Source: Verrucomicrobiota bacterium (GTDB taxonomy: Bacteria > Verrucomicrobiota > Verrucomicrobiia > Limisphaerales > JADLHS01). Taken from it: a DNA stretch of 64,000 nt. The stretch is taken from contig JAKQDQ010000042.1 in NCBI GenBank assembly GCA_029573725.1, positions 312,777-376,776 of the forward strand, given 5' to 3'. The notes under the pieces are model-generated. The model was not told the origin of the DNA, ran no database searches, and worked only from the letters and a program-made list of their open reading frames with translations. Of the stretch, positions 24,480 through 36,165 are shown one piece after another (the first letter of the stretch is position 1; each line of letters opens with the position of its first letter). The translations under genes and the position numbers were made by a program.

Positions 24480-26123
24480 GTGGATCTTCAACAACAGATC
24501 ACGTTGATTTCGCAACTGCTGGGCGGCGGCGGTTTGTTTTTGCTGGGGGTGTTCCTCATCACTGACGGATTAAAGACGGCCGCCGGTGCCGCGCTGCGGC
24601 GGGTGCTGATCCGGTTCACCGCCAAACCGGTGGCGGCCTTCCTCTCCGGGGCGGGCATCACCGTGCTGGCCCAATCTTCCAGTGCCACGACCCTGGCCAC
24701 CATCGGTTTTGTCAGCGCCGGCATTTTAACCTTCTCGCAATCACTCGGGATCATCCTCGGTGCCAGCCTGGGCACCACCAGCACGGGCTGGCTGGTGGCG
24801 CTGGCGGGCCTCAAATTCGGCATTGGCAAGCTGGCATTTCCGCTGGTGGGGTTGGGGGCCGTGTTGCGGTTGGTGGTGCGCGGACGCAAAGCCGGGATCG
24901 CCCTGGCGGTGGCGGGCTTTGGCGTGATGTTTGTGGGAATCGAGGTCCTGCAGACGGGGTTGGCTCCGCTCTCAACCTCCTTTTCTCCCGCCGACCTGCC
25001 GCAGGGCAACATGGCGGGACGCGTGTTGCTTGTAGTCGCCGGCATTGTCTTGACGGTGTTCACCCAATCTTCGGCGACGGCGGTGGCGATGACGCTGACG
25101 GCATTTCACTCCGGCATGATTGATCTGGATCAGGGCACGGCATTGGTCATTGGCGCGAGCATCGGCACCACCTCCACTTCCGCCCTGGTGGCGATTGGCG
25201 CCACGGCTTCCGTCAAACGCACGGCGCTGGCGCACATCCTGTTCAGTCTGGCCGCCGGACTGCTGGCGTTCCTGCTGGTCCCGTTGTTTATCTGGGGAGT
25301 GCGTTGGGCGGAGCAGCACTTTCACCTGCAATTCGGCGCGGTGATTTTGGCGGCGTTTCATTCGGGTTTCACCCTGCTGGCCGGATTGTTGTTCCTCCCG
25401 AAGGTGCAGGCGTTTGGTGATCTGGTGGAACGACTGATTCCCGAGCGCGGCCCGGCTTTGACCCGGCACCTGGACGCCTCCCTGGTGGAGGTGCCCGAGG
25501 TGGCCATTGAAGCCGTGCGGCGAACCTTGCGGGAGGTTTTTGCCGAAATCCTCGCCACGCTGGATCGCGCCATCAACCAGAATATCCGGCCCAACGCCGG
25601 ACGGCTGACGGTCACGTTGACGGCCTTGCAAGAAACCCGCCGTTTCCTGGGACTGATCCCTTTTTCCGCGTCTCCGGCCGATCACCAGAATACCCGCGCT
25701 TCCATTTTTCATGCCCTGGACCATTTATTCCGCCTGGCGATTGCCGCAAAAGATGACTTTGAACCCGATGCGTTCGGGGATGAGCCGCGGGTGCAGGATT
25801 CCAAACGCATGGTGGTGGAGCTCCTGGGCCGGGTGCAACCCGTGCCGCCGGGCGGATCCGCCGGTTTCGCCGACGCGCCGTTGCAGCGACTCTCACAGAC
25901 CCTGGCCGAACGCCGCCGTCGGGGCCGCGCCAGTCTGCTGGAGGACAGCGCCCGGGGGGTGATTGAATCGGACCAGGCCCTGCACGCGCTTGACGGTTTG
26001 CGACAGCTGGACACCATTGGCTACCACATTTGGCGGATTGCGCACCATTTGAACGCCGAGGTTCGCGGCCGTACCGATGCGGCGGAGGCGGCGCGCGATG
26101 TGGATGAATTTCAGGCGGATTGA
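24480..26123 (+). CDS. Na+/phosphate cotransporter family protein (NptA-like) with PhoU-like tail
   Basis: The product is about 547 residues. The first 320 form two inverted repeats of the Na/Pi-cotransporter family, each with a Gln-Ser-Ser motif: ITVLAQSSSATTLATIGF near residue 63 and LTVFTQSSATAVAMTLTAF near residue 196. Each is followed by a LGTTSTGW or IGTTSTSA loop. About 10 membrane segments are predicted. The C-terminal 200 residues are helical and PhoU-like. It would import phosphate with sodium, or act as a regulated channel. GTG 24480 (VDLQQQITLISQLLGG) is the likely start; TTG 24468 is also in frame. It lies 19 bases after the nucleotide kinase gene. Confidence 0.88.
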   Translation: MDLQQQITLISQLLGGGGLFLLGVFLITDGLKTAAGAALRRVLIRFTAKPVAAFLSGAGITVLAQSSSATTLATIGFVSAGILTFSQSLGIILGASLGTTSTGWLVALAGLKFGIGKLAFPLVGLGAVLRLVVRGRKAGIALAVAGFGVMFVGIEVLQTGLAPLSTSFSPADLPQGNMAGRVLLVVAGIVLTVFTQSSATAVAMTLTAFHSGMIDLDQGTALVIGASIGTTSTSALVAIGATASVKRTALAHILFSLAAGLLAFLLVPLFIWGVRWAEQHFHLQFGAVILAAFHSGFTLLAGLLFLPKVQAFGDLVERLIPERGPALTRHLDASLVEVPEVAIEAVRRTLREVFAEILATLDRAINQNIRPNAGRLTVTLTALQETRRFLGLIPFSASPADHQNTRASIFHALDHLFRLAIAAKDDFEPDAFGDEPRVQDSKRMVVELLGRVQPVPPGGSAGFADAPLQRLSQTLAERRRRGRASLLEDSARGVIESDQALHALDGLRQLDTIGYHIWRIAHHLNAEVRGRTDAAEAARDVDEFQAD

Positions 26124-26149
26124 CGCCGGCGCGCTCCCGGCCGTAACGG

Positions 26150-27571
26150 CTATTGTGCCGCAGTCGTATGTTCCTGCCACCCGCCGCCCAGCGCCTGGTA
26201 AAGGTTGATCAGGTTGAACGCGCGGGCATAACGCGCGCGAATCAAATTCTGCTGGGCCTGGTACAGCGCCTGTTGCGCCGTCAACACGTTGAGGTAGCTG
26301 TCCACCCCATGACGAAAACGGGCCTCGGCCAGCTCAAATCGCCGTTGCTCGGCCTGCACCAGCCCTTGATGCGCATCGCGCTGGGTCTGGATGGTCTTTT
26401 GCATCGCGAGCGTATCCGCCACTTCGCGAAAGGCGGTCTGAATGGCGTGCTGATAATTTTGCACCTGAATCAACCGGGTCACCCTGGCCGCGTCCAGCCC
26501 CGCCTGCATGGTGCCGAGGGCGAAGATGGGCCACTGCAGCTGCGGGGCAAAACTCCAGACGCGCGAACCGGGCACGAACAAGTTTTCCAGGTCCGTGCTG
26601 GAAAAACCCAGCGTGCCCGTAAGCGTGATGGTGGGGAAGAACGCCGCGCGCGCGGCGCCAATCACGGCGTTGGCGGCTTTTAATTCATGTTCGGCGGCCA
26701 GAATATCCGGACGCCGCTGCAGCAAATCGGACGGTAATCCGGGGGGCACCGCGGGCAGGCCCAGTTGCGCGGCAAAGGGGGCCGGCGCGGGCAGGTCCGC
26801 CGGCAGGGGGCGACCCACGAGCAGGACCAGGTAATTTTCCTGCAGAGCCAGCTGCTGCTCGAGACCGGCCTCGTTCACCCGCGCCGTTTCCACCTGCGCT
26901 TCCGCCATGCGGAGGTCCAGTTCGGAAACCGTGCCGATGTCATAGCTGGTCCGGGTCAAGTCATAGGCCTGGCGGACCGCCGCCAGGGTTTGGCGCGCCA
27001 CGTCCAGTTGTTCAGTCAGTTCGCGTTTCGTCAAGTACGCTCCGCTGACTTCGGTGATCAGTGCGATTTGCGCGCTCCGCTGGGTTTCCTGAGCGGCAAA
27101 GTATTTTTCCAAGGCCTCCGCTTTGAGGCTGCGCACCCGGCCAAACAGGTCCACTTCGTAGCTGGCCATGCCGAGATTGACGTAATACTGGCTGTAAGTA
27201 ACCGGCCCTCCCGCGCCGGCGAATCCGTTCGCCACCCGCTGGCGCGAGCCGCCCGCGTTGAGATTCACGACTGGAATCAGTTCGTTCCGCTGAATCCGGT
27301 AGCGCGCCTGATATTCCGCCACGTTCAGCAGGGCCAGGCGCAGGTTGGAGTTGTTGGTCAAGGCCAGTTCAATCAACCGCTGCAATTGCGCATCGCGGAA
27401 GAAATCGCGCCACCCGATCTCAGCGGCGACCGGGGCGTTGCTTCCGGCGGCCGCCTCCGCGCCCGCTTGCGGCCAGGCCTCTGCGATGGCGGGTTGGGGC
27501 CGCTCATATCGCGGCGTCATGGTGCAGCCTGCCAGAACCGCCAGCCCGAGGCACAACAGCAATTTATTCAT
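26150..27571 (-). CDS. RND efflux outer-membrane factor lipoprotein (NodT/OprM family)
   Basis: The 473-residue protein has a lipoprotein signal ([16 protein letters not shown], lipobox LAGC at residues 13-16) and two outer-membrane efflux repeats. The alpha-helical tunnel pattern includes [60 protein letters not shown] and [20 protein letters not shown]. It forms the outer-membrane duct for the adjacent pump. The strong Shine-Dalgarno AAGGAGG ends 8 bases before ATG 27571 and decides the start. It overlaps the end of the pump gene by eight bases. It is the last gene of the efflux operon and convergent with the Na/Pi gene. Confidence 0.94.
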
Positions 27572-30500
27572 CCGGACCGCCTCCTTTCCCCGGCGCGCCA
27601 CCGGCCGGGACCGGGGGAAGGGCCGGCGCGGTCGCGAGAGGTTTCCGGCGCTTGAACAGCCGGCGCACGACAACGTAGAACACGGGGACCAAAAAGATTG
27701 CCAGCACCGTGGCGGTGATCATGCCGCCCACAACGCCCGTGCCAATGTCGTGCCGGCTGGCCGCACCGGCTCCCGTACTCAACGCGAGCGGCAGAACCCC
27801 CAGAATGAAGGCCAGCGAGGTCATCAGGATGGGACGGAGACGCTGGCGCGCGGCCATCAGCGTCGCCTCGATCAGATCGCGCCCTTCCGCTTCCAGGTCC
27901 TTGGCGAACTCGACGATGAGAATCGCATTCTTCGCTGAGAGGCCGATGATGACCAGCAATCCCACCTTGAAGAACACGTCGTTGGGCAACCCGCGCAACT
28001 CGGCGCCCAGCAAGGCGCCCAGGATGCCGAGCGGCACCACCAGCATGACGGAAATCGGAATGGACCAGCTTTCATAAAGTGCCGCCAGGGCGAGGAACAC
28101 CACCAGCATCGAAAGCAACAACAGCAGCGGCGCCTCCCGGGAGGAGCGCAATTGTTCGAAGGATTGCCCCGTCCATTCGTACCCGATGCCTTCCGGCAAC
28201 TGCTGCGCCAGGCGTTCCATGGCTTCCATGGATTGACCGATGCTCACGCCCGGCGGGGCCGAACCGATGATTTCCAGCGACGGGAAGCCGTTGTAGTGTT
28301 GCAGGGCCGGCGAGCCGCTGATCCAGCGGGTGGAGACGAGTTCCGCCAGCGGGACCATGGCGCCGTTGCGACTGCGGACGTAGGCGGTGCCCAGGTCCTG
28401 CGGCAGCATGCGGTAGGGCGCGTCCAACTGGGCGATCACCCGCTGCACCCGGTTGCCGTTGACGAAGTTGTTGATGTAATACGAGCCGAAGCTCGCGGTC
28501 AGGGTGGCGTTCAAATCCGCCAGCGAGACGCCCAAGGCCTCGGCTTTTGTCTGATCCACATCCATCTTGAGCTGGGGGGTGTCTTCCAGCGCCTGCATTT
28601 GCAGCTGGGTGATGTGGGGCTCCTTGGCCGCCAGGGCGAACAACTGCTCCTTGGCTTCCATCAATTTCGCGTGCCCCAGGCCCGCTTGATCCTGGAGTTC
28701 AAAATCGAACCCGGAGGCCACCCCGAGTTCCGGGATGGGCGGGGGGTTCAACGGGAAGATGATGGCCTCCGGAATCTGGCTGAACGCGCCGAACGCCCGG
28801 TTGATGAGGGCTTGCACCGAATGTTGCGCGCCGCGCCGTTCCCGCCAGGGCTTCAATCGCACCCAGGAAATGCCCGCATTTTGGCCCTGACCGCTGAAGC
28901 TGAAACCCGCCACCGCAATCATGTCCTCGACCTCGGGCTGTGCGAGATAAAACTTTTCGAGCTGTTCGAACACCGCAAGGGTGCGTTCGGTAGAGGAACC
29001 CACCGGCAGGACGACGTTGGTGATGAGATACCCCTGATCTTCCGAGGGCAGAAATGCCGAGGGCAACCGCCAGAACAACCAGACCACGACCGCGACAATC
29101 CCGAGGTAGAGCAGCAGATACCGCGGGGCATGTTTCAAAATGCGTTTGACGCGTCCTTCGTACCGGTGCGTGGCGGCGTTGAATTGGCGGTTGAACCAGC
29201 CCCAAAAGCCCCGCTTCTCGACGTGGTGACCTGCCTGCACCGATTTGAGCAACGCCGCGCACAAGGCCGGGGTCAGCGACATCGCCAGGAAGACGGAGAA
29301 GATCATGGACGCGACCAGCGTCAGGGAAAATTGCCGGTAAATCGCGCCCACGGAGCCGCCAAAGAAGGCCATGGGAATAAAGACCGCCGTCAGCACGAGG
29401 GAAATGGCAATGAGCGCGCCGGTGATTTGCTCCATCGCCTTGCGCGTGGCTTCGCGCGCCGGCAGCCCCTCCTCGCTCATGATGCGCTCGACGTTTTCCG
29501 TCACCACGATGGCGTCATCCACCAGGATGCCGATGGCGAGCACCATGCCGAACAGGGTCAGGACGTTGATGGAAAAGCCCATCGCATACATGATGGCGAA
29601 CGTCCCCAGCAACGCCACCGGGATCACCATCGTGGCAATGAAGGCCGTGCGGATGCTTTGCAGGAAGAAATAGATGATCAAAAAGACCAGAAAAATGGCT
29701 TCGAGCAGGGTTTTGATCACTTCCTTGATCGATTCCTGAATGAATTCCGTCGAGTCGTAGGGATAGGTGACCTTGATCCCCGGGGAAAAAATTCGGCAAG
29801 CTGCTTGACGCGCAGGCGCACCGCGTCGGCCGTGGCCAGCGCGTTGGCTCCCGGCGCCAGACGGATGCCAATGGCCGCCGCGGGGCGGCCATTCACGCGG
29901 GTCTGGGTGACGTAGGTCGCTCCGGCCAGTTCCACCCGGGCGACGTCACGCAAATGCACCCGCGAGCCGTCCGGGTTCACGCGCAACAGGATGTTTCCAA
30001 ACTCCTCGGGAGTGGTCAGCGTGGTCTGTCCCTGCAACGTGACGTTGATTTCCTGCCCCTTCACCGCGGGCAACATGCCGATCTGCCCGACCGGGACCTG
30101 GGCGTTTTGCGCCTGAACGGCCGCGATGATGTCGCCGGCGGTCAGTTGGTATTCCAGGAGTTTTTCCGGGTTCATCCAGATGCGCATGGCGTACTCGGTG
30201 CCGAACAAATTCGCCTCGCCCACGCCGGTAACGCGGCTGATGGGATCAAGCAGGGTGGTGGCGATGAAATTGCCCAGCTCGATGTGGTTCATCGTATTGT
30301 TCGTGGAGGACAACGCGAAAAACATGAGGTAATTCCGCGTGGACTTGGTCACCACGATGCCCTGCTGCTGCACGGTCATCGGCAGACTGGGCACGGCCAG
30401 CTGCAGTTTGTTCTGGACCTGCACCTGGGCAATGTCGGGATCGGTGCCGGATTCAAAGTACAATGTCACGGTGGCCTGGCCGCTGGCGCTGCTGCTGGAC

Positions 30501-30736
30501 GACATGTAGAGCAGGTGGTCCAGTCCATTCATCCGCTGTTCAATCACGGAGGTGACCGTGTCTTGCACCGTTTGCGCCGATGCGCCCGCATACGTGGCGG
30601 TGATGGAAATGGAGGGCGGCGCCACGTTCGGATATTGCGCCACGGGCAGGCGGGTGATCGCCATGATCCCCGCCAGCATGATGAAAATCGAAACGACCCA
30701 GGCGAAAACCGGACGGTCAATGAAGAATTTTGCCAT
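27564..30736 (-). pseudogene. RND multidrug efflux permease (AcrB/MexB, HAE1 family), single-base frameshift
   Basis: The two halves match one pump. The first, from ATG 30736 (MAKFFIDRPVFAWVVSIFIM), runs through the first porter subdomains to LAEFF; the second, in another frame, continues from [17 protein letters not shown] to the end. The break lies near 29782-29785, in a run that reads TTTTTT CCCC GGGG on the minus strand; one further C would give the conserved FFPPGIK and restore about 1057 residues, the normal size. TM4 residues ([17 protein letters not shown]) and all twelve membrane segments are otherwise intact, and no other lesion is seen. The pump would exchange drug for protons across the inner membrane. 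A homopolymer sequencing error is as likely as a real mutation. It lies 17 bases after the adaptor and overlaps the outer-membrane factor. Confidence 0.9.
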
Positions 30737-30753
30737 GACGCGGTTCCTTGCCC

Positions 30754-31962
30754 CTACTTCCCACGCGCCACCGTGACCGTGTTTGTCTTGATGCCCGCGG
30801 GTGGGTGCGGCTGGACTTCCATTCCGGGCCGCGCCTTTTGCAGCCCTGCCACCACCACGTGGTCTCCGGCTTTCAAGCCGCTCCGGATTACCCATTGGCC
30901 GCCCACCGCCGCGCCCAGTTGCACTGGTTGCACTTGCACAATGTTATTGCTGTCCACCAGCAGCACACTGGCCTGGCTGTCCGCGCCGATGGTCACCGCG
31001 CGCTGCGGCACCAGCATCGCCTCCGGCGCGACCGCCTGTTCGATCTGGCCCATGACAAACATGCCGGGCAGCAGCCAGTTTTCCGGATTGGGAAATTCGG
31101 CGCGGAGCGTGATCATGCCGCTGCTCGCGTCCACCGAGATGTCGGAGAACAGCAACTTGCCCGCATGCGGATAGACCGACCCGTCGGGCAGCAGCAGCGT
31201 CACCCGGGCTTCGCCCGAGGGCAGGCTTTGCAATTGGCCGGCCTCCATCTGGCGGCGCAACTGCATCACCTGCCGCGCGGATTCGGTAAAGTCGAAATAG
31301 ATGGGGTCCATCTGCTGGATCACCGCCATTTCGGTCGCGCCCATCTGGCTGACCAGGGCGCCCTCGGTGACCAGCGCCGAACCGATCCGGCCCGAAATTG
31401 GCGCGGTCACCCGGCAATAACCCAGATTGATCTGCGCGGTCTGCAGGGCGGCTTTCGCCGCCATGACGCTGGCCTTGCCCTGCGCGACGGCGGAAACGGC
31501 GTTGTCGTAATCCTGTTTGCTGACGGCATTGATCCGCATCAGCGGTTCGTAGCGATCCGCCAGTTGCTGCGCCTGCAGCAAATTGGCTTCCGCCCGGGCC
31601 AGGCTCGCGGCGGCGCTGTCGTGAGCCGCCTGGAACGGCGCCGGGTCGATCTGGTAAAGCAACTCCCCCGCTTTGACGTTGGCGCCCTGGCTGAATTTCC
31701 GCTCCAGCACCACGCCATCCACGCGGGCGCGCACTTGGGCGATGCGCACCGGATCAATGCGACCGGGCAGGGTATTGGTCAGCGCCAGATTTCGGGAGGT
31801 GACAGTGAAGATTTCCACCTTGGGAGGCGGGGAGGACGTTTGTGTTCCCGCGGGTTGGTCGTGGCATCCCGTCAGCCATCCCAGCGTCAGCAGCAGGCTC
31901 ATCGTGCTGCCGCGGAGACCGGAGACGCAACCGGATAATCGGACAAGGTATTTCAGCTTCAT
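30754..31962 (-). CDS. RND efflux periplasmic adaptor (AcrA/MexA family) lipoprotein
   Basis: The 402-residue protein has a lipoprotein signal with lipobox LTGC (Cys near residue 33), a barrel/lipoyl half (LPGRIDPVRIAQVRARVDGV, VKAGELLYQIDPAPF), a coiled-coil hairpin of about 80 residues, LGYCRVTAPISGRIGSALVT, and a membrane-proximal domain with LLPGMFVMGQIEQAV and VPQRAVTIG. It links the pump to the outer-membrane factor. ATG 31962 is given; ATG 31902 would shorten the signal to a minimum. It lies 44 bases after tetR and 17 before the pump. Confidence 0.94.
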   Translation of the reverse strand: MKLKYLVRLSGCVSGLRGSTMSLLLTLGWLTGCHDQPAGTQTSSPPPKVEIFTVTSRNLALTNTLPGRIDPVRIAQVRARVDGVVLERKFSQGANVKAGELLYQIDPAPFQAAHDSAAASLARAEANLLQAQQLADRYEPLMRINAVSKQDYDNAVSAVAQGKASVMAAKAALQTAQINLGYCRVTAPISGRIGSALVTEGALVSQMGATEMAVIQQMDPIYFDFTESARQVMQLRRQMEAGQLQSLPSGEARVTLLLPDGSVYPHAGKLLFSDISVDASSGMITLRAEFPNPENWLLPGMFVMGQIEQAVAPEAMLVPQRAVTIGADSQASVLLVDSNNIVQVQPVQLGAAVGGQWVIRSGLKAGDHVVVAGLQKARPGMEVQPHPPAGIKTNTVTVARGK

Positions 31963-32006
31963 GTGGTATAGCAGCAGGTGGATTCAGATTCGGCGCGGTA
32001 CGTTCC

Positions 32007-32705
32007 TCAATTCCATTCCTCCTTGAAGGCCTGCATCAAGGCCGGGGGATCGTAATGGGTGGCGATGGCCTGCTCAGTCAATCCCATGCCGCGCAAGGCA
32101 AACCAGAGCGCCTGGTTCAACAACTCCGCGCGCGCGGTGCGGTAATCTATCGCCGTCTTTTCCGGCAGGTGCATCACGGCCAGCCAGGCGGCGACGTGAT
32201 GCGCAAACCGGACGCGATTCCCCACGGTGGCCGAGCCGTTGACCGCCTCTCCGGCGGCAATGGCCGCTTCCAGACAGGCTTCCATCCGCGCGCAGAACCG
32301 GGCGAAGCGGTTGCGGTACAGCAGGCGGGCAAACGTGCCGTCTTCCAGAAGACTGTTCAGCATCAGGCGGAAATGGGTGTCCACTTTGACCTCACCCAGC
32401 GTTTGGCGCAGAAGGAGCGAACGCATCAGGTAGTAGGTCAGTTGCACGAGGGTGGCGGTGGAAGCGGGCAGGCGGGAAAGCCGTTCCACCGCGGGATCGG
32501 CGCTCTGACAGCAAAAATTCTGGATCGTCTCATACAACGCCTCCTTGCTGGGGAAATGCCGGTACAGCAACGGCTCCGAAACGTCGGCGGCGCGGGCCAG
32601 CTCGCGCGTCGTTGTCGCGGCGAAGCCCTTGTGCGCAAACAACGGCATGGCTGCGCGGACAATGGCGCGTTTCCGATCTTCAGCGGTAATGCGTGAGGAG
32701 CGCAT
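32007..32705 (-). CDS. TetR/AcrR family repressor of the efflux operon
   Basis: The 232-residue protein has an N-terminal helix-turn-helix (residues 10-57: IVRAAMPLFAHKGFAATTTR and ADVSEPLLYRHFPSKEALYE) and a ligand-binding helical C-terminal domain. It is first in the operon tetR-adaptor-pump-outer-membrane factor and presumably represses itself and the pump until a toxic ligand binds. A perfect inverted repeat over its promoter is the probable operator. There is no Shine-Dalgarno, and the promoter places the RNA start at the ATG, so the message is probably leaderless. The ligand is unknown. Confidence 0.92.
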   Translation of the reverse strand: MRSSRITAEDRKRAIVRAAMPLFAHKGFAATTTRELARAADVSEPLLYRHFPSKEALYETIQNFCCQSADPAVERLSRLPASTATLVQLTYYLMRSLLLRQTLGEVKVDTHFRLMLNSLLEDGTFARLLYRNRFARFCARMEACLEAAIAAGEAVNGSATVGNRVRFAHHVAAWLAVMHLPEKTAIDYRTARAELLNQALWFALRGMGLTEQAIATHYDPPALMQAFKEEWN

Positions 32706-32711
32706 TTGCCG

Positions 32712-32735
32712 GCAAGTTAGTGATTGCTAACTTGC
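32712..32735. promoter_or_regulatory. Probable TetR operator (perfect 9-6-9 inverted repeat)
   Basis: GCAAGTTAG (32712-32720), six bases, CTAACTTGC (32727-32735). It is centred seven to thirty bases upstream of the tetR ATG, covers the -10 and most of the promoter spacer, and is the right size and symmetry for a TetR-family dimer pair. Assignment to this repressor is by position. Confidence 0.8.
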
Positions 32736-32742
32736 TCGTCAA
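32714..32742 (-). promoter_or_regulatory. Promoter of the tetR-efflux operon
   Basis: On the minus strand, TTGACG (32742-32737), a spacer of exactly 17 bases, and TAACTT (32719-32714). Eight bases separate the -10 from the ATG at 32705, so transcription should begin at or one or two bases before the start codon. The operator overlaps both the spacer and the -10. Confidence 0.65.
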
Positions 32743-33400
32743 AGAAATTATTCTTCCGTGCGCGGCAGTGAAGCACGAGGGGGCCGGACCGGTATGCGGC
32801 GGTATCGCCTGTCCGGGACTGATGCCGCAACCCGGAAGTCGCCCCCCGGTCGGCCGGGCGCGCAGGAGGCGGATTGCGCGCGCCTCGCGTCCGGGCGGCA
32901 GCCGCAAGCGCCGCCGGACGAGGGGCTCCGGAGGCGGACCCCGGCTTGCGTTATTTCCGCGACCACCTATGCTCCATCCGCACACTGGTGTGCAGACCGG
33001 TCCGCGCAGCTCACCACCGCCATGGCGGGAGCCTGCCGTGGAAGGCGGGAGCGCAACCATTATTTCCCAGCTTCAATCCGCCGGGAAAATCATTTGCGAA
33101 CGAACCGTGGCGACAGAACGAATCAAGGCACCGAGGTTGGACGCCGGCCGCATTCCGGGTGTGGCTTGTGGGAACGGGCTCCTACGCCGGCAAACCGCGT
33201 CTGCGGTTTGCCGGTGTCCCGGGCCGGCGTGGCCGGCGATCCGCACCGGTCGCGCACGCGTTCGATGAACGTGCCGGCGCGCCGCCCGTTTCCCCCACAA
33301 AATGCACCGTCAGCCGATGAGCCTGGTCCCCGTTTTTCAAAATGTCCCTTTTCAAGGAGGGATCAAACTGAAACCATCCACAAGAGTTGAGGGCGGCTGA
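32743..33400. other. About 660 bases without a recognisable gene
   Basis: Several open frames cross this stretch on both strands, but all are rich in Arg, Pro and Gly and resemble no family. It holds a strong hairpin (33184-33217). A good Shine-Dalgarno AAGGAGG (33354-33360) has no usual start codon at the right distance; a CTG at 33368 would open only ten codons, ending directly before the antiporter ATG. No promoter was assigned. Confidence 0.5.
33184..33217. repeat. Long perfect hairpin in intergenic region
   Basis: A 12-bp perfect stem (33187-33198, CCGGCAAACCGC, with 33203-33214) around the loop GTCT extends to 15 bp with one G-T pair (33184-33217). There is no T tract on either side, so it is not a simple terminator. 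It could be a dispersed palindromic element or part of a structured RNA. Confidence 0.6.
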
Positions 33401-35701
33401 ATGGGGATGTCGGGCATTGATTTCATTCAAGATTTGGGGCTGGTGATGCTGGTGGCGGCGATGGTGGGCTGGCTGTGCCAGCGCATCGGGCTGCCGGTCG
33501 TGATCGGCTACATTACCGCTGGAATTTTGATCGGCCCCCACACCCATTCGTACGCGCTGATTCGCAGCCCGGACCGGATCCAGTCACTTGCGCAAATTGG
33601 CCTGGTCTTTCTCATTTTCAGCATCGGCCAGGGCATCAAATTGCAACGCCTGCGCAAAGTCGGCATTCCGTTGGTGCTGGCCACCGTGTTGATTGCGGCG
33701 CTGGTGCTCATCGGTTGCCGCGTGCTTGGCACTGCGCTGGACTGGCCGAGCACCCAGAGCCTGGTTCTCGCCGGCATGCTGATGGTTTCCAGCACGGCGG
33801 TATTGGGGAAAAGCCTGCGGGAGGCCAACGCACTCCACACGCGGTTTGGTCAAACCGCCCTCACGGTGACGGCATTGGACGACATGGTAGCCGTGGTCAC
33901 CCTGACGGTGCTGTCGTCCCTGGTCGAGGTTGGCCAAACCGATGCCGCAGTAGTCTTCGGTACGGTGCTGCGGTTGAAGGCCGTCATCGTGACCCTGGTC
34001 GTGGGGGCGCTGCTGCTCGTGCCGCCGTTGTTGAAGCGCTTGAGCCACGGGGTCGCCCCCGAGATTCGTTCGTTGACGATTGTGGGGCTGTTGCTGGCGA
34101 TGGCTTTGGTTTCCGCCAAGGCGGGATTTTCTCCGGCCTTGGGGGCGTTTTTGCTGGGGGCGATTGTTTCCTCCACGGGCCGCGGGGAGCAAGTGGATCA
34201 AGTGCTTGGCGGATTGAGCGACGTTTTCGGGCCGGTTTTTTTTGTGGCGATCGGGATGCTGTTTGATTTCAAACTGGTGGTGGACGTCTGGCCGCTGGTG
34301 GTGGGCATCTTCCTGGTGGCGGTGCTGTGGCGCACCCTTGCCGCCACGGGCGCATTGCTGCTGGTGGGGCAGCCCATGCGGGACGCCGCGCGGGCCGCGT
34401 TGTGCCTCACCCCGATTGGCGAGTTTTCCCTGATCATTGCCCTGACGGGCGTTCAAGGGAAACTGGTGCCGGAATGGTTCTACGCGCTGGGCATCGGCGT
34501 CTGTTTGCTGACATCCCTGGCGACACCGCTGTTGATCCGGCGATCGGGCGGTTTCGGCGTCTGGATGGAGCGCCGGCAGCCGCGATTTCTGGCGGAGGGC
34601 ATTGGTTTTTACCATGAATGGTTCGAGCGCTTGAAACATCGCGGCGCCGGCAGCCTGACCTGGAAGTTGCTTGCCCCACGGGTGGTTCAAATTGCCCTGC
34701 TGATCTTGTTTTGTTCCGGGCTGCTGTTCTTTGCGCAGCCGCTTTACCAAATGACGGGCAAATGGCTGGACACGGACTGGGGCACGGCGGGCCGGCTGGC
34801 GGTCGCCTGGAGCATCGGGTTTGGCATGGTTTTGCTGGCACCGCTCATTGCGTTATGGCGGAACGTGGATGCGGTGGCCATGATCTGCGCCGAGTCCGCC
34901 ACCCAGGGACATGCGCGGCGCGCGGTGTTGCGGCCGTTGTTTGCACGCAGTCTGAAAGGCGCCGCGGCATTCGGGTTATTGTTGTGGTTTTCCGCGCTGA
35001 TACCTTATGGGTTGTTTCCGTGGTGGGGCTGGGTGATGCTGGTCGTCGTGTTTGTTTTGATGACCAGTCTGTTTTGGCGGCGCTTGATCCGGTTGCACAG
35101 CCGGTTCGAAATTGAGTTGCGCCGTCAACTGGCCGACTCGCCCTTCACCGATGGCCGGCCGGTCCTGGCCGGATGGTCGGGAGCGGACAATCGCTGGGGA
35201 CTGAATCTGGCGGAATGTGTCCTTCCCGAAATCTCCCAAGCGGTGGGCAAATCCATTGCCACGCTGCCGTTGCGTCCGCAGTTCGCCTGCACCATTGTCA
35301 GCATTGAACGCCAGGGCATCACCATCTCCAATCCGGCCGCGGAGATCATGCTCTTTCCCCATGACAAAGTCCTGCTGCTGGGGCAGGACGAGAATTTGCG
35401 TCAGGCGGAAAACTGGTTGTGTTCGGCAGCCCCGCCGGATGCGCATCCAGTGGACGCGCCGACCCTGGCGGATTTGGGGCTGGAGCAATTGACGGTGCCG
35501 GCCACCTCCCGGTGTGTGGGCAAGTCCCTGGGCGAACTGGCGCTGAATACGCGGTTCGGAGTGCAGATTGTGGCGATTGAACGCGACCAAAGGCCGATAT
35601 TAAATCCCAATCGTTTTGAATCCTTGCAGCCCGGCGACCAGCTGCTGGTGCTGGGCGTTCCGGAACGCGTCAACGAAATGGCGTTCTGGCTCGCCAACTG
35701 A
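33401..35701 (+). CDS. CPA2-type cation:proton antiporter with two TrkA-C domains
   Basis: Residues 1-380 of this 766-residue protein are a Na+/H+ exchanger-like core (LGLVMLVAAMVGWLCQRIGL, GYITAGILIGPHT, TALDDMVAVVTL, ALGAFLLGAIVSS), as in KefB/YbaL. The usual NAD-binding RCK_N domain is absent. Instead three or four further membrane segments (about 430-570) and then two TrkA-C modules follow (about 605-675 and 690-766; SIATLPLRPQFACTIVSIER and LGELALNTRFGVQIVAIERD). TrkA-C modules bind small ligands and gate transport. Likely it moves K+ or Na+ against protons. A GAGGG motif seven bases before ATG 33401 supports that start. Confidence 0.88.
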   Translation: MGMSGIDFIQDLGLVMLVAAMVGWLCQRIGLPVVIGYITAGILIGPHTHSYALIRSPDRIQSLAQIGLVFLIFSIGQGIKLQRLRKVGIPLVLATVLIAALVLIGCRVLGTALDWPSTQSLVLAGMLMVSSTAVLGKSLREANALHTRFGQTALTVTALDDMVAVVTLTVLSSLVEVGQTDAAVVFGTVLRLKAVIVTLVVGALLLVPPLLKRLSHGVAPEIRSLTIVGLLLAMALVSAKAGFSPALGAFLLGAIVSSTGRGEQVDQVLGGLSDVFGPVFFVAIGMLFDFKLVVDVWPLVVGIFLVAVLWRTLAATGALLLVGQPMRDAARAALCLTPIGEFSLIIALTGVQGKLVPEWFYALGIGVCLLTSLATPLLIRRSGGFGVWMERRQPRFLAEGIGFYHEWFERLKHRGAGSLTWKLLAPRVVQIALLILFCSGLLFFAQPLYQMTGKWLDTDWGTAGRLAVAWSIGFGMVLLAPLIALWRNVDAVAMICAESATQGHARRAVLRPLFARSLKGAAAFGLLLWFSALIPYGLFPWWGWVMLVVVFVLMTSLFWRRLIRLHSRFEIELRRQLADSPFTDGRPVLAGWSGADNRWGLNLAECVLPEISQAVGKSIATLPLRPQFACTIVSIERQGITISNPAAEIMLFPHDKVLLLGQDENLRQAENWLCSAAPPDAHPVDAPTLADLGLEQLTVPATSRCVGKSLGELALNTRFGVQIVAIERDQRPILNPNRFESLQPGDQLLVLGVPERVNEMAFWLAN

Positions 35702-35760
35702 TCGGGCAGGTTTTTCTTGAGTTAAATTTCAAATCATCAACAAATCATGGCAACGTAATT

Positions 35761-36165
35761 ATGAATCCTCGAGTCATTTACATCACGGACGCGGACATGC
35801 GGCGGCTGCAACCGCTGGTGGAGAACATGAAAAAATCGCGCGACGATCTGCGACAATTGCAGACTGAACTGGAGAATGCGCACGTGGTAGCTCCCCAGGC
35901 AGTGCCGGCCGATGTCATCACCATGAATTCCAAAGTCCGCCTGCGCGACCTGGAAGCCAACGAAGATCTGATCTACACGCTGGTGTTTCCCGAGCAGGCC
36001 AACATTGAGCAGGGACGCATCTCGGTGGTCGCCCCGATTGGCACCGCCATGCTGGGGTATCGCGTCGGTGATGAGTTCCAATGGGAGGTTCCCGGCGGGA
36101 CGGCGCGCATGAAGGTGGAGGAGATCCTGTATCAACCGGAAGCCGCCGGCGATTACCACCTGTAA
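35761..36165 (+). CDS. rnk: Rnk-like nucleoside diphosphate kinase regulator (GreA/GreB C-terminal fold)
   Basis: The 134-residue protein has a short N-terminal helical part (MRRLQPLVENMKKSRDDLRQ), then the FKBP-like GreA/B C-terminal fold with ITMNSKVRLRDLEANEDLIY, VFPEQANIEQGRISVVAPIG and AMLGYRVGDEFQWEVPGG. Its length and order match Rnk, which binds RNA polymerase near the secondary channel but lacks the long Gre coiled coil. It is monocistronic, 59 bases after the antiporter gene. Confidence 0.9.
   Translation: MNPRVIYITDADMRRLQPLVENMKKSRDDLRQLQTELENAHVVAPQAVPADVITMNSKVRLRDLEANEDLIYTLVFPEQANIEQGRISVVAPIGTAMLGYRVGDEFQWEVPGGTARMKVEEILYQPEAAGDYHL

Follow-up and report, generated by a model that had tools for sequence, protein, structure and literature searches.

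We analysed the 45 bp in front of a tetR-family regulator gene in a 64,000-nucleotide (nt) stretch of a Verrucomicrobiota genome of the order Limisphaerales (assembly GCA_029573725.1, contig JAKQDQ010000042.1, positions 312,777 to 376,776), hereafter the window. These 45 bp very probably form a conserved autorepressor module: a TetR operator lies on the gene's own promoter, the tetR message would be leaderless or nearly so, and the efflux pump genes behind tetR are probably controlled by read-through. The window observation taken alone is unconvincing, and it is conservation that makes the case; the elements, their conservation and the one-per-genome link with this tetR are established from the sequence. 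The initial annotation of the window was right in substance and is better supported than its reader could know, partly on other grounds, and the arrangement is not new in kind. The elements of the module are as follows.

32007–32705, minus strand: tetR-family regulator gene, 232 aa, ATG start, Pfam TetR_N
32705–32707, minus strand: predicted transcription start, 0–2 nt before the ATG, placed by the discriminator length and a pyrimidine-purine step; the start codon follows the −10 by 6–7 nt in 14 of the 19 homologous loci
32712–32735: perfect 9-6-9 inverted repeat, the predicted TetR operator, covering the spacer and the −10; the dyad is kept in homologs
32714–32719, minus strand: −10 hexamer TAACTT, within the right arm of the operator; of the 11 core homologs, the window among them, ten have TAACTT and one TAACCT
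32737–32742, minus strand: −35 hexamer TTGACG; TTGAC in 17 of 18 other homologous loci, TTGAT in L018

On the minus strand, TTGACG (32742–32737) is separated by a 17-nt spacer from TAACTT (32719–32714), which is followed after 8 nt by the tetR ATG (32705–32703); no other in-frame start occurs from the preceding stop codon to codon 20. The arms of the repeat, GCAAGTTAG (32735–32727) and CTAACTTGC (32720–32712), lie over the −10 and the spacer exactly where they had first been placed, and the hexamers and their distance from the ATG were likewise read correctly. The description of the promoter as near-consensus was overstated: it has 8 of 12 consensus matches (−35, 5/6; −10, 3/6, namely T1, A2 and T6), and a consensus scanner with a 9-of-12 floor did not list it.

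In the proposed mechanism, the module combines a sigma70-type promoter (TTGAC, 17 nt, TAACTT) with a dyad whose right arm contains the −10, and transcription would begin at the tetR start codon or 1–2 nt ahead of it. A TetR dimer would bind the dyad, cover the −10 and the spacer and block RNA polymerase, thereby repressing its own gene. By read-through it would probably also repress the genes for a periplasmic adaptor (MFP), an RND permease and an outer-membrane efflux channel (OMF) that lie behind tetR, and a ligand, perhaps a pump substrate, would release it. Ribosomes would initiate at the 5'-terminal AUG without a leader, and at GTG in most homologs.

Protein searches found homologs of this tetR in 12 other genomes (13 loci) among 293 of the order and in five other genomes (five loci) among 387 of the phylum. 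None was found in the 11 other genomes searched from the window's own family, and the gene is therefore patchy. These 18 further loci, from 17 genomes, were compared together with the window as 19 loci, from which L006 and L007, duplicates of L008 and L009, had been excluded. With the −10 as anchor, the operator region of all 19 aligns without gaps, and each locus has a −35 of TTGAC (18) or TTGAT (one, L018) and a dyad, the right arm of which includes the −10 place. The 11 core loci share CTAACTT, with a single CTAACCT; the CTAAC of the right arm is invariant and together with the −10 nearly so, the left arm reads GTTAG, GTGAG or GTAAG, and the flanks have drifted. The eight divergent loci, at about 37–43% identity, have a dyad that has diverged, in most cases to the GTAAG...CTTAC type.

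A composite promoter-operator pattern, TTGAC-(5,6)-GTDAG-N5-ACTAACYT, was searched in the 293 genomes of the order and matched in 12, once in each, while the reversed control gave no match. Eleven of the 12 matches are exactly the core tetR orthologs (at least 48% identity), in the same genomes and places. As the pattern was derived from the core loci, refinding these is by construction; the informative part is that it found almost nothing else and a single site per genome. With one match per genome and 11 of 12 at the core tetR, the composite element is a private site of this regulator. Conservation at 18 further loci and this one-per-genome association together lend support to the original suggestion of a TetR operator on the promoter. 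The twelfth match (L092, genome G016) lies 8 nt upstream of an ATG, and the N-terminus of the protein encoded there reads like a metal-ABC solute-binding protein. Genome G016 has no tetR ortholog at E 1e-25, and L092 was set aside as a site of this system and taken as a chance or convergent site.

Perfect 9-bp repeats are not rare, with 24 start positions in the 64-kb window at loops of 0–20 and four at a loop of 6, so it is position and conservation, not the repeat alone, that raise this one above chance. In the whole genome the operator is a single site at up to two mismatches, and five more sites appear at three mismatches (the reversed pattern gave 15 matches per strand). A regulon at other genome sites was rejected since there is no second site at up to two mismatches. 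A palindromic operator near the regulator's own promoter, a trait of the TetR family, is seen here both in the sequence and in its conservation.

The same alignment bears on a different account of the repeat, in which tetR is really transcribed from a promoter more distant from the gene, such as the AATAAT at about 32749, and the message carries an ordinary leader whose repeat folds into an RNA hairpin near the AUG and affects translation. The window does have this AATAAT upstream of the tetR promoter, and the repeat would give a 9-bp RNA stem just ahead of the ATG. The aligned homologs, however, retain TTGAC and TAACTT and not AATAAT, and an upstream promoter was rejected on this ground. The third pair of the stem is broken without a compensating change in 6 of the 11 core loci, the left arm varies and the CTAAC of the right arm shows no compensation; a leader hairpin was rejected because the stem is not kept in these six. 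We consider this account very improbable. A fixed right arm with a changing left arm agrees with a DNA operator in which the −10 holds the right arm in place.

The distance between the −10 place and the start codon in the 19 loci is 6 nt in ten, 7 nt in four, 8 nt in one (the window), 9 nt in one and 10 nt in three. The usual gap between a −10 and the transcription start is 6–7 nt, so the predicted transcription start coincides with the start codon for most homologs and lies 0–2 nt ahead of it in the window. The 8-nt gap and a C/A step at 32708/32707 make 32707–32705 the likely start there. A leader of about 2–5 nt, with near-leaderless initiation, is a possible alternative that we hold to be less than probable. 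It would agree with the 8 nt of the window, with the 9–10 nt of four homologs and with a second TetR group at 11–13 nt, described below; the spacings of exactly 6 nt in 10 of 19 loci and 7 nt in 4 of 19 match the usual gap and argue for starts on the codon itself. The claim of a leaderless tetR message is best kept in the form of a leaderless or near-leaderless one, which the conserved spacing supports, with a predicted leader of 0–2 nt in the window.

Several observations weigh against the autorepressor module as proposed. The −10 of the window has just three of six consensus bases. The eight divergent homologs have TTACNT, TTACAA or TGACAT at the −10 place, and because the usual A at position 2 is missing, the −10 assignment is weaker in them; the gap reaches 10 nt in three of these homologs. 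The analyst took as start codon the first in-frame candidate that looked plausible downstream of the −10, and a second start lies 5–6 codons further in at L008, L010, L011, L013 and L014–L016. The codons so chosen are GTG in 11 loci, ATG in seven and TTG in one. GTG and TTG starts were weak or dead in a leaderless test of the regulator gene acuR in Rhodobacter, according to an excerpt of PMC3017554, so that leaderless use of GTG or TTG is an assumption for this phylum. Finally, the assembly shows a break in the reading frame of the pump.

The initial annotation also took the lack of a Shine-Dalgarno (SD) sequence as a sign of a leaderless message. No SD-like tetramer occurs upstream of the start in any of the 19 tetR loci, and this part stands. 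As evidence it fails: a codon-usage script of simple design predicted 355 genes in 464 kb of this genome including the window, and SD tetramers form no peak upstream of their candidate starts. Because the sampled genes show no such peak, the missing SD at tetR is uninformative. Some Verrucomicrobia are described as SD-poor (PMC10783764). The anti-SD pattern GGATCACCTCCTTT of the 16S 3' end was not found in the draft genome, which says nothing, as the 16S gene may be missing from it. A C stands at position −1 in about 45% of the predicted starts (window and L046–L065).

Promoter-to-start geometry was more informative. A genome-wide search for TTGACN-N17-TANNNT with an RTG 6–8 nt behind it gave 12 matches (L021–L032), one of them this tetR, and all 12 lead into an open reading frame (ORF) with a positive coding score; the reversed control gave eight matches. 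Longer spacings gave two matches at 14–16 nt and three at 26–28 nt, none of the five leading into a coding ORF. Among the 12, one gene resembles NadA and one UvrB in the analyst's reading. TANNNT alone gives a modest signal before candidate starts, with a peak of 17 at 6 nt, where intragenic positions predict 3.4; the counts are 15 at 9 nt, 11 at 7 nt and 1–12 elsewhere in 0–30 nt. Judged by these patterns, leaderless genes look common in this genome. Cappable-seq of Akkermansia muciniphila, a member of the same phylum, placed about 10% of mapped transcription starts on start codons (PMC4782308). Leaderless starts may well be ordinary in this lineage, because the 6–8 nt geometry recurs and about 10% of starts are leaderless in Akkermansia.

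We also surveyed 32 other TetR loci, comprising 26 of 30 search matches (L077 included) and six from another search; the window gene (L072), the core orthologs L073–L075 and the weak long-ORF matches L083, L122, L125 and L127 were left out. In the 160 nt before the helix-turn-helix, 14 of the 32 have a TTG-type −35 (at least 4/6) with a TANNNT −10 and 18 have no such promoter. The first start follows the −10 by 6–14 nt in 12 of the 14 and by 27 and 51 nt in the other two, a result that is a lead only, as the scan window favours short gaps. A TACCGT −10 at 11–13 nt is common to 8 of the 12 short-gap loci. These eight, from relatives (L101, L102, L104, L105, L106, L108, L109 and L115), have a conserved TTGACN-16/17-TACCGT promoter 11–13 nt before an ATG, which would give a leader of 4–7 nt if typical, and they look like one orthologous group.

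Behind tetR, the window contains the following genes.

30754–31962, minus strand: RND periplasmic adaptor (MFP), 44 nt after tetR
27564–30736, minus strand: RND permease, in two frames in this assembly (29717–30736 and 27564–29720)
26150–27571, minus strand: outer-membrane efflux channel (OMF, NodT type)

The four genes are collinear, with gaps of 44 nt and 17 nt and then an overlap, and no SD-like motif precedes the MFP ATG. All three parts of an RND tripartite efflux operon are thus present in a row, with the RND in two frames. Its frame breaks near a T6-C4-G4 run at 29778–29791 (minus strand), and its homolog in L033 is a single open frame of 1047 aa; the break reflects either an error in the assembly or a gene that is truly broken. 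Six of the 13 order loci repeat the order tetR-MFP-RND-OMF (the OMF is cut by a contig end in one), and in these the pump is a close relative in one (61–67%) and a different one in five (31–43%). Of the remaining order loci, contig ends truncate two, and the other five have non-pump neighbours. In the phylum set, a distant RND and OMF follow tetR at one of the five loci, and the other four show no such genes.

These neighbourhoods bear on a narrower reading, in which a genuine operator controls only tetR, and the pump genes are transcribed from a separate promoter or only occasionally together with tetR. The module is indeed kept with tetR in the five order loci with non-pump neighbours, and without a pump in four of the five phylum loci. 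The short gaps and the overlap in the window speak against this reading, as do the collinear pump genes in 6 of the 13 order loci and, as a weak test, the absence of any consensus promoter or terminator between tetR and the MFP from the scanner list. We judge it unlikely. The proposal that one site controls the whole four-gene operon fits the spacing and the synteny; the broken RND frame and the pump-less homologs that keep the promoter qualify it. Because this promoter is retained in homologs that lack the pump, the module belongs to tetR and not to the pump, and the spread of pump identities (61–67%, 31–43% and about 23%; L033–L038 and L133) suggests that pumps have been exchanged behind one regulator.

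The regulator has an N-terminal TetR_N helix-turn-helix (PF00440, 67.3 bits against a cut-off of 24, E 9.7e-19). No NCBIfam TetR equivalog (AcrR, MtrR, AcuR, RutR, SlmA and others) reached its cut-off, the best among the 20 families listed scoring 47.7 vs 150 bits. A PDB sequence search with E of 0.001 or below gave 128 distinct sequences; among the 60 of these listed, the best was Mce3R (1.8e-11), mostly the N-terminal part was aligned, and no close relative was present. A search of window positions 26000–36000 gave no Rfam match. On the other side of the promoter, 32743–33400 is a G+C-rich region of about 660 bp without a convincing gene, followed by a divergent gene.

33401–35701, plus strand: CPA2-type antiporter gene, divergent from tetR

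The design has a proven precedent in the acuR-acuI-dddL operon of Rhodobacter sphaeroides and, by this analogy, the window tetR would belong to a known type of switch. According to the same excerpt of PMC3017554, the acuR message starts on the ATG by 5' rapid amplification of cDNA ends, an 8-n6-8 inverted repeat overlaps the promoter, operator mutation gives constitutive expression, and translation of the leaderless regulator reaches about 7.5% of that of the following gene. The window likewise has a dyad over the promoter of a regulator-first operon; the acuR design of a TetR-family autorepressor first, a message starting on the ATG and downstream genes under the same switch is what is predicted for it. 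The acuR operon differs in its acrylate ligand and catabolic cargo and in the SD motifs of its downstream genes, whereas the MFP here has no such motif, and the benefit of weak repressor translation may not apply because the MFP start also lacks one. Nor is the window protein an AcuR by NCBIfam (18.9 bits vs a cut-off of 247). Local RND repressors of the AcrR type similarly place a TetR-type regulator beside an MFP-RND-OMF set, but the AcrR score is 30.1 vs 271 bits, and the layout and operator of the window are its own. The tetA and tetR genes of Tn1721 are arranged divergently, whereas the window tetR heads a pump operon. Tn1721 tetR and lambda cI, both cited in the PMC3017554 excerpt, have a leaderless repressor message like the one predicted for the window gene and are different repressors. 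Searches of the open-licence literature turned up the acuR precedent as well as the Akkermansia data, and none of the papers listed dealt with this tetR group.

A broader generalization is plausible, though we would stop short of calling it probable: across the order, and perhaps the phylum, self-repressing TetR genes would as a rule be promoter-operator-start modules with no or almost no leader and with 5'-terminal GTG accepted, the module moving with tetR while the pump is exchanged, as one face of widespread leaderless, SD-poor initiation. The module offers a natural example, in a little-studied phylum, of a promoter, an operator and a start codon drawn into one 45-bp unit that is kept while the controlled genes change. 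It also carries a warning that in SD-poor genomes a missing Shine-Dalgarno sequence cannot call leaderless genes, for which conserved spacing between the −10 and the start codon would be a better test. With its frequent GTG starts, the module may serve as a test of leaderless initiation on GTG in this phylum.
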